Of a stretch of DNA of 45,410 nucleotides, positions 17,741 through 20,085 are shown in pieces. Where the stretch lies: contig JAQSYR010000002.1 in assembly GCA_029256035.1 (NCBI GenBank), positions 1 through 45,410 of the forward strand. The letters are read 5' to 3'. The notes under the pieces were generated by a model. The model had not been told where the DNA came from. It saw only the letters and a list, made by a program, of their open reading frames with translations, and did no database searches. This stretch comes from Anaerocolumna sp. (GTDB taxonomy: Bacteria; Bacillota; Clostridia; Lachnospirales; Lachnospiraceae). Position 1 is the stretch's first letter; every line of letters starts with the position of its first letter. The position numbers and the translations under genes were made by a program.

Positions 17741-18976
17741 ATGATAAATAGTACGACAGTTAAAGTGTCACTTTGCCTATCAGCGGCTTTGGTATCCTTA
17801 AGTTTTCCCGTGACAGCAGAAGCAGCAAAAGAAACAAGAACATCAGATGTTGGAATTGCAGGTATAACACAAACCTTGGATTTATTGTACTCAACAGCAT
17901 CAGAACAGGTTATAGGAGAAGTGGAGTCACTTGTTTTAAAAAGTGATGAAATCAGTGAGAAACAGACTTTAACGCAAGTAGAGTCGCCATATGCCAATCT
18001 TGGTATCTCAATTGCAGAGAATTATGTAAATATAAGAAAAGAACCCAATACAGAAAGTGATGTTGTTGGTAAATTATATAAAGGATGTGCAACCGATATC
18101 CTTGCTACGGAAGGTGAATGGGTAAAAATCCAGTCAGGCAAAGTTAATGGTTATATTAATGCAGAATTTCTTGCAATTGGAGAAGAGGCAGAAGGGTTAA
18201 TTGATGACTATGCAACAAAGTATGCTACCATCAACACTCAAACCTTGTTTGTTCGTGAGAAACCAAACACAGAAGCCACCATTACAACTATGGTGCCTTT
18301 GGGTGAAACGTTCTTAGTATTAAATGAGAACGAAGGCTGGGCTAAGATTATGATTGATGAGGAAGAGACCGGCTTTGTTTCAAAAGACTACATAACTATG
18401 GATGTTGAATTTGAATATGCAGTTTCAATTGAGGAAGAACAGGCCAAATTAGCTGCAGAAGAAGCAGCAAGACAGGCAGAAGCGGAAAGACTTGTAAAAC
18501 TTGCAGAACAGCAGGAAGCGGCAAGACAGGCGCAAGCTCAAAGTAACTCAAACAATAATACAGAGAAAGAAACATCTTCCTCTGAAAATATAAGTTCTAA
18601 TCCAGGTAATTCAAGTGTAGGACAAGAGATTGCAGATTATGCTGTGAAGTTTGTAGGAAATCCTTATGTATGGGGTGGTACAAGTTTAACTAATGGAGCA
18701 GATTGTTCTGGTTTTGTTCAATCAATCTATTCTCACTTTGGATATGGAATAACAAGAACCTCAAGAGATCAGGCTGCATCAGCAGGACGTGAAGTTAGTA
18801 TTGACAGCCGTCAACCAGGAGATTTAATATTCTATAGAAACAGCAGTGGGGTTGTAAACCATGTTGCAATTTATATAGGTAATAATAAAGTTGTACATGC
18901 AAGTAATGCAAGAGAAGGTATTAAAATCTCAAGCTTTAATTATCGTACTCCGTATAAAATTAGAAGAATCGTATAA
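17741..18976 (+). CDS. Secreted SH3-domain NlpC/P60 peptidoglycan hydrolase
   Basis: Signal peptide, two SH3-like repeats (NYVNIRKEPNTESDVVGKLYKG; QTLFVREKPNTEATITTMVPLG), Ala/Glu-rich linker, NPYVWGGTSLTNGADCSGFVQSIYSHFG and NHVAIYIGNNKVVHASN. Confidence 0.93.
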   Translation: MINSTTVKVSLCLSAALVSLSFPVTAEAAKETRTSDVGIAGITQTLDLLYSTASEQVIGEVESLVLKSDEISEKQTLTQVESPYANLGISIAENYVNIRKEPNTESDVVGKLYKGCATDILATEGEWVKIQSGKVNGYINAEFLAIGEEAEGLIDDYATKYATINTQTLFVREKPNTEATITTMVPLGETFLVLNENEGWAKIMIDEEETGFVSKDYITMDVEFEYAVSIEEEQAKLAAEEAARQAEAERLVKLAEQQEAARQAQAQSNSNNNTEKETSSSENISSNPGNSSVGQEIADYAVKFVGNPYVWGGTSLTNGADCSGFVQSIYSHFGYGITRTSRDQAASAGREVSIDSRQPGDLIFYRNSSGVVNHVAIYIGNNKVVHASNAREGIKISSFNYRTPYKIRRIV

Positions 18977-18995
18977 ATTAATAACTATTCATATC

Positions 18996-19045
18996 TACCA
19001 GTTATCATCATAACCGTTATGGTTAAGAAGGTAACTGGTATTTTA
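18996..19045 (+). terminator. Terminator after the NlpC/P60 gene
   Basis: TACCAGTTA / TAACTGGTA stem with inner AACC/GGTT, followed by TTTTATT. Confidence 0.7.
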
Positions 19046-19085
19046 TTACTATTTTTAAAAGAAGGCATGCTAATATATCAAGAAG

Positions 19086-19156
19086 TTATCCACAATTAAA
19101 AACCCTTGTTTTTTCAATAATAGAAGTTATACACTAAGTTATCCACATTATCCACA
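19086..19156 (+). promoter_or_regulatory. DnaA-box cluster
   Basis: Exact TTATCCACA at 19086-19094, 19139-19147 and 19148-19156 (the last two abut), plus a degenerate TTATACACT at 19127-19135. Confidence 0.7.
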
Positions 19157-19484
19157 TAGTGTAACCACTGCTGTCGAATGTAAACAAGCTGTCAAGGTAG
19201 AATATTTGTTTTGTAAATTGTGATAAATTAGACAAAAAATGAAGTGTTTTATATTACAATTGCAGGTATGATTATTGTCAAATAAAAAAGAAATTTGTAA
19301 GGAAAATAATAAGAATTTGACGAAAGTTTGCGACTTTAAGACGAAAAATTAAGTTATTTAATACTTTATGTAAAAATTAGTCCTTTTGACCTAGTTCCTG
19401 GTCAAAGAAAAAAAGCATTCTAGTAACCTGTATTTTGATCAAATAATAGGAGAAATACTTTGTACAATCCAATGGGGAAATTGC

Positions 19485-19513
19485 TTGTCACTGTAGTTAC
19501 CATGTGTTATAAT
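19485..19513 (+). promoter_or_regulatory. Putative sigma-A promoter of hpf
   Basis: TTGTCA (19485-19490), 17 nt, TATAAT (19508-19513). Confidence 0.65.
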
Positions 19514-19557
19514 ATAAGTACGATATAAGAATAGAAAGTCAAAAGGAGTTGGTCATT

Positions 19558-20085
19558 ATGCGTTATATCATTAGCGGTAAAAATATTGAGGTTACTGAGG
19601 GTCTAAAAAGTGCAGTTTATGAAAAAATAGGTAAGCTCGAGAGATATTTTACTCCTGACACAGAAATACATGTAACAATGAATGTTGAAAAGGAAAGGCA
19701 AAAAATTGAAGTAACCATTCCTATGAAGGGTACTATCATCCGAGCAGAACAAAGTAGTAATGATATGTATGTATCAATTGATTTAGTAGAAGAAATCATC
19801 GAACGTCAGTTAAGAAAATATAAGAATAAGATTATCGAACAAAAACAATCTGCAGCAAGTTTGAATCAGTCATTTGTAGAGGATGACTATAGTGAAGATG
19901 ATTCTATCAAAATTATAAGAACCAAAAAGTTTGCCATTAAGCCAATGGATCCTGAGGAAGCTTGCGTTCAGATGGAATTATTAGGACACAATTTCTTTGT
20001 TTATCGTAATGCTGATACAGATGAAGTAAATGTAGTATATAAGCGTAAAGGTAATACTTATGGTTTAATTGAACCAGAAATTTAA
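19558..20085 (+). CDS. hpf: Long-form ribosome hibernation promoting factor (HPF/RaiA)
   Basis: MRYIISGKNIEVTEGLKSAVYEKIGKLERYF N-domain and IIRTKKFAIKPMDPEEACVQMELLGHNFFVYRNADTDEVNVVYKRKGNTYGLIEP C-domain. Confidence 0.93.
   Translation: MRYIISGKNIEVTEGLKSAVYEKIGKLERYFTPDTEIHVTMNVEKERQKIEVTIPMKGTIIRAEQSSNDMYVSIDLVEEIIERQLRKYKNKIIEQKQSAASLNQSFVEDDYSEDDSIKIIRTKKFAIKPMDPEEACVQMELLGHNFFVYRNADTDEVNVVYKRKGNTYGLIEPEI

Follow-up and report, generated by a model that had tools for sequence, protein, structure and literature searches.

The described systems closest to the locus reported here are datA, the DARS sites of Escherichia coli, the extra-oriC DnaA-box clusters of Bacillus subtilis and the basal unwinding system of oriC itself. 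In datA, high- and low-affinity DnaA boxes run in the same direction, IHF bends the DNA between boxes, and the locus is origin-proximal (PMC5742627). The cores of DARS are instead built on a head-to-head pair, boxes I and II, that binds ADP-DnaA (PMC5742627). In B. subtilis, six DnaA-box clusters lie outside oriC and deletion of all six causes early initiation, as Okumura et al. (2012) are cited in PMC13220808; according to this 2026 review, B. subtilis has neither datA nor DARS, and it is not known to have regulators that balance ATP-DnaA and ADP-DnaA. The locus described below, an array of four DnaA boxes found upstream of hpf in Anaerocolumna sp., is a conserved element with fixed geometry across genera, families and classes of Bacillota. 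The sequence comparisons give good support to its prediction as a DnaA-binding control locus outside oriC; judged from the same comparisons and by analogy, it is probably an origin-proximal, stand-alone, non-coding site that would sequester or inactivate DnaA, limiting re-initiation.

The window, that is, the whole stretch of 45,410 nucleotides that was analysed, contains the four boxes at 19,086–19,156, all on the + strand and at offsets of 0/41/53/62 from box 1 (Table 1). A previous sequence-only reading had described three exact boxes and one degenerate box in a single orientation, two of them exactly abutting, in an intergenic region of about 570 bp before hpf and away from dnaA; all of this holds, the gap measuring 581 bp (18,977–19,557) and dnaA being found on another contig (C252). 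The DNA following the cluster is AT-rich as had been claimed, but no richer than the flanks (AT about 0.68–0.69 throughout in relatives), and the extent given to the cluster, 19,086–19,156, does enclose the boxes but is too short for the element, which also takes in a conserved AAAAG ahead of box 1 and, at about 19,200–19,228, a second motif.

Table 1. Features of the DnaA-box element and its surroundings (positions in the window).
Feature	Positions	Strand	Basis or remark
Upstream gene, secreted SH3-repeat / NlpC-P60-like protein	17741..18976	+	Family named from sequence; often lies to the left of the element in relatives
Inverted repeat ACCAGTTA...TAACTGGT, then T-rich DNA; putative terminator of upstream gene	18997..19043	+	Read from sequence; consensus scan gave no call
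Whole conserved element, from the lead-in through the four DnaA boxes to the downstream motif	19081..19231	+	Position-locked conservation in 66 non-redundant relatives; downstream motif
DnaA box 1, TTATCCACA, after conserved AAAAG-like lead-in	19086..19094	+	Starts exactly 41 bp before box 2 in 66 relatives
Spacer, 32 bp	19095..19126	+	Weak sequence conservation; A/T tracts recur about every 10 bp at locked positions
DnaA box 2, weak and specialised, TTATACACT	19127..19135	+	Lachnospiraceae consensus TTATACAC[CGTA]
DnaA box 3, TTATCCACA, set off from box 2 by conserved RAG/RAC	19139..19147	+	
DnaA box 4, TTATCCACA, abutting box 3, 9-bp period	19148..19156	+	
Second conserved motif GAATATTTGTTTTGTAAATTGTGATAAAT	19200..19228	+	Matches Lachnospiraceae consensus [GA]AACANNTGTTTTGTG..A..AAA at 12/13 core positions
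Likely hpf promoter, TTGTCA-17-TATAAT with TG extension	19485..19513	+	11/12 consensus positions; 329 bp past box 4
hpf (ribosome hibernation factor), then secA-like and prfB-like ORFs	19558..20085	+	Name from the earlier reading, supported by synteny

The sequence-only reading had put forward a genome-wide count of box clusters as a check. Counting the boxes gave 43 exact copies of TTATCCACA in the host genome (2.08 Mb in 264 contigs, 63.5% complete) and 22 for the reversed control. Were 43 boxes scattered at random, about 3.5e-5 triples would be expected within a 62-bp span, and reversed-pattern controls were zero in every genome set; a chance cluster is thus rejected. Abutting box pairs occur at two places only in the host genome, in this array and at a site between murC and dnaD-dnaC. 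At the latter (G000:C45:4714-4917; L004, L001 1501-1704), a DnaA-box cluster with an abutting pair lies after murC and before dnaD-dnaC-prs, which suggests control by DnaA of its own helicase-loading genes, dnaC encoding the helicase loader; a similar cluster is present at murC-dnaD in another genome (G028, L124). Elsewhere, at G000:C111:86890-86910, two copies of TTATCCACA lie 12 bp apart on the minus strand with few long ORFs around.

The conservation of the element was followed outwards from hpf, a homologue of which was identified by protein search in 114 of 120 Lachnospiraceae genomes, yielding 110 upstream regions. All four boxes are found upstream of hpf at 0/40–42/52–54/61–63 in 49 of 110 Lachnospiraceae genera, and geometry scores fall in separate groups, with 49 regions at 39 or above, a few with boxes 2–4 only and the remainder below about 6. 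Same-strand boxes are most frequent between 200 and 400 bp before hpf, where the two 100-bp bins hold 84 and 100 of them (against 18 and 12 on the opposite strand), and drop to 0–4 per bin beyond 600 bp. Independently of hpf, the core formed by boxes 2–4 (at most two mismatches) is present in 78 of the 120 Lachnospiraceae genomes, with zero matches to the reversed-pattern control; about one third of the genomes have no core match at the thresholds used, and the element is thus not universal. At one mismatch or fewer, the core turned up in 49/196 order-level, 41/291 class-level and 76/300 phylum-level genomes, with controls at zero, these counts varying with mismatch thresholds and incomplete assemblies and the genomes not being independent samples. 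A scan of named genomes returned at least 119 stretches, nearly all from Lachnospiraceae among the matches listed; a match in Listeria fleischmannii, which is without box 1 and abuts a coding region, was not counted. Searches of the literature on Lachnospiraceae together with the DnaA box, and on the downstream palindrome, returned nothing relevant.

In 66 non-redundant relatives, conservation is position-locked and extends beyond the boxes to the lead-in (AAAAG), to the RAG/RAC that parts box 2 from box 3 and to the A/T tracts of the spacer. Box 2 is specialised, its Lachnospiraceae consensus having A at position 5 in 84% and a free last base. The spacer between boxes 1 and 2 is 31–33 bp long in Lachnospiraceae and one turn shorter in other families: box 1 starts 40–42 bp before box 2 in the former and 30–32 bp before it in many of the latter, with few sites in between. 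This difference of one turn suggests a role for the face of the helix. A period fit of upstream box distances peaks at about 11–11.25 bp but is dominated by the 40–42 peak, so that the phasing rests on two peaks, at about 31 and 41 bp.

The second motif is tied to the boxes in a similar way. In most Lachnospiraceae loci, [GA]AACANNTGTTTTGT lies 71–74 bp after the start of box 2 (71 of 125 at two mismatches or fewer, 1.6 expected), the copy in the window occupying 19,200–19,214; in families f24 and f76 and in some phylum-level loci, the full palindrome ACAAAACANNTGTTTTGT lies at about +42. The conserved palindrome downstream of the DnaA boxes was noted at 19,200–19,228 in the window and in loci L318, L322, L324, L326 and L407. 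The distance from motif to boxes is fixed and family-specific. GAACANNTGTTT is common to the Lachnospiraceae form [GA]AACANNTGTTT and to the LexA sites that precede lexA in these genomes, and it also occurs in the GAAC-N4-GTTT sites of C. difficile (PMC4234289). This resemblance to an SOS box is the ground for an alternative in which a small RNA or peptide, unannotated and perhaps induced by damage, would be controlled from the boxes and the palindrome. Such a control region is nonetheless quite unlikely: no conserved sequence, RNA family or ORF is found after the motif; compared with the CGAAC-N4-GTTYG core of the LexA box and with the SOS boxes at lexA, the motif differs in its outer positions (TTTTGT, not TTTG) and carries AAAC in about 37% of cases; its arms read AAAAC, not CGAAC, outside Lachnospiraceae; and the copy in the window has GAAT, not GAAC. 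A plain LexA box does not fit the palindrome outside Lachnospiraceae, where the core is similar and the flanks are wrong. A structured RNA was rejected since Rfam has no match within the window and the DNA after the element shows no conserved block resembling a transcript.

The products of hpf and secA in the window share 87–91% and 90% identity, respectively, with those of metagenome-assembled loci, including Anaerocolumna sp., identities that put the host among Lachnospiraceae close to Anaerocolumna. In many order-, class- and phylum-level loci the element likewise lies upstream of hpf. The sequence-only reading had entertained DnaA control of hpf, and a transcriptional role of DnaA at hpf (and secA) would link ribosome hibernation to the replication state. 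In about half of the carriers, distant families included, the element does sit a few hundred bp upstream of hpf and in the same orientation; such adjacency is above expectation if position were irrelevant and counts against the reading as a stand-alone site. As a primary function, however, hpf control is unlikely and was not retained: the probable hpf promoter lies 329 bp beyond box 4, the distance from element to hpf varies (roughly 200–490 bp in Lachnospiraceae and up to about 770 bp outside), and hpf is without boxes where the element sits elsewhere. By coordinates, the element is away from hpf in about 28 of the 78 core-carrying Lachnospiraceae genomes, where it commonly adjoins a P60 gene or lies near tagA/yitT, glmS or a V-ATPase subunit D gene, and in four families (f2, f24, f28 and f65) other genes separate it from hpf; in the last three the interval is 2.6–12 kb and holds an amino-acid ABC transporter or further genes. 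In five examined loci (L140, L220, L233, L243 and L250), it lies between the 3' ends of convergent genes, so that no adjacent promoter is apparent. These relocated copies and convergent contexts led to the rejection of an hpf operator as the core function. The array, with its single orientation and fixed spacing, has been kept while genomes were rearranged around it. A tie to the P60 gene, true for many Lachnospiraceae, was also rejected, since distant families have other neighbours and the element is thus independent of that gene.

Two variations on this gene order were observed. In Enterocloster/Hungatella-like genomes (L192, L211, L234, L236, L248 and relatives), secA and hpf are divergent and flank the element, and an extra abutting DnaA-box pair lies 76–85 bp before box 2 in several of these loci. 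A record labelled Anaerolineaceae (L205, SHOH01000074.1) bears a complete Lachnospiraceae-type P60-element-hpf-secA-prfB block and is probably a mislabelled or contaminated contig of a metagenome-assembled genome.

The placement of the element relative to dnaA was established in near-complete genomes of relatives, the host assembly with its 264 contigs standing outside this set, and origin-proximity is thus read from relatives. In 13 of 13 such genomes from eight families, the element lies at 2.6–19.4% of the genome from dnaA, the maximum possible being 50%: 2.6% in G442, 2.7% in G504, 5.4% in G577, 6.8% in G524, 7.8% in G230 and 8.6% in G453, then 14.2% in G046, 15.0% in G211, 15.7% in G308, 16.7% in G157, about 19% in G299 and 19.4% in G145, with about 5% as a lower bound in G102 (five contigs). 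Its orientation relative to the fork is not fixed. In two single-contig Lachnospiraceae genomes that have no core match, hpf is farther away, at 34% (G085) and 28% (G035).

Proximity to the origin is distinct from being one. The core layout, box-N3-box-box, is that of the unwinding module of real origins in some Clostridia: in two loci with adjoining dnaA and dnaN (L181 and L242), an identical core is followed by a long DnaA-trio, CTACTAATACTATTACTA, and these show what the core looks like when part of an origin. The element could on this ground be an auxiliary or former replication origin, which is extremely unlikely. In relatives, the typical oriC structure sits at dnaA-dnaN with a DnaA-trio (as defined in PMC7561715), and in a locus of the same genus (L158) dnaA is followed by TTATACACAAATTAACAGCCCCTATTACTACTGCTACTA, a box, a GC stretch and the trio. 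Downstream of the element there is no trio (score 2.08, against 2.65 for its own shuffles), and no conserved GC cluster was seen after it in the 66 relatives; none of the order-, class- and phylum-level loci fetched has an adjoining dnaA or dnaN, or a trio. GC skew does not switch at the element and is positive on both sides within the window; in G308, which has dnaA at 1.3 kb, it stays positive from 5 kb up to 2.26 Mb, a span that includes the element at 712 kb, and is mostly negative beyond. The sequence-only reading had itself named a true oriC at this site among the outcomes that would change its interpretation, and the position of dnaA, the trio test and the GC skew together reject that case.

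How, then, might a stand-alone DnaA-binding site outside oriC act? DnaA would bind boxes 3 and 4 tightly and extend cooperatively over the weak box 2; looping across the bendable A/T-tract spacer would bring into contact box 1, which would lie on the same helical face three to four turns away. IHF is not known from bacteria of this kind, and the bend would thus need HU or intrinsic A-tract curvature. The outcome would be a head-to-tail DnaA oligomer presumably unable to open DNA, as no DnaA-trio follows. The locus may titrate DnaA or promote ATP hydrolysis within the oligomer, two activities that sequence cannot separate, and either would help to block re-initiation, since the locus would be copied early in each round of replication. 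A second protein probably binds the palindrome and tunes the locus, as IHF does at datA.

The opposite polarity, in which a DARS-like site regenerates ATP-DnaA instead of removing DnaA, had been proposed alongside titration by the sequence-only reading. A cluster of a few DnaA boxes next to the site of a second protein is also a fair description of DARS2 (PMC5742627), but the boxes of the element are all head-to-tail, there is no position-locked minus-strand box, and membership in the DARS class was rejected in the absence of the head-to-head box I/II pair that defines its cores (PMC5742627). The element also lies near oriC. E. coli DARS2, by contrast, is far from it. Reactivation is thus very unlikely; an extra-oriC control locus stands, and titration or inactivation of DnaA would fit it better.

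The presence of one recognisable, conserved DnaA locus across Clostridia and the wider Bacillota offers a concrete target for the question of how ATP-DnaA and ADP-DnaA are balanced; its phased geometry is a natural data set on DnaA oligomer and loop formation, and its palindrome points to a candidate partner protein. More tentatively, the element may be a two-protein switch, ancient in Bacillota, in which an origin-proximal, head-to-tail DnaA array imitates the loading module of oriC but leaves out the part that unwinds DNA, and a fixed palindrome receives a second regulator, possibly SOS-related in Lachnospiraceae, that decides between sequestration and inactivation of DnaA. If this were true, the Gram-positive lineage would have in this element its missing regulator of the datA type.

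Compared with the oriC basal unwinding system, made of tandem boxes, a GC stretch and a DnaA-trio, the element shares the core found in the L181 and L242 origins but has no trio, is not at dnaA and shows no skew switch. With DARS1 and DARS2 of E. coli, it has in common a small DnaA-box cluster outside oriC, and in the case of DARS2 sites for other proteins; DARS, however, needs boxes I and II head-to-head, whereas the element is strictly head-to-tail. The likeness to the B. subtilis clusters, drawn from their description in the citing review, lies in intergenic DnaA boxes outside oriC in the same broad phylum, and the element indeed has consensus boxes, is intergenic and lies away from dnaA and oriC; unlike those six loci as described there, it is a single locus in which four boxes keep a rigid, helically phased spacing next to a palindrome. 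Like datA, it is non-coding, single and origin-proximal (near oriC in all 13 near-complete genomes of relatives), and its predicted high- and low-affinity boxes run in the same direction, as do the essential boxes of datA. Where datA has an IHF bending site between boxes, the element has position-locked A/T tracts in its spacer; its 41/12/9 spacing and second motif differ, and the parallel with datA is one of architecture. As IHF is not expected and DnaA-ATP hydrolysis at the element is a proposal made by analogy, membership in the datA class is not claimed; by the same analogy, the element most plausibly works like datA or the B. subtilis clusters.
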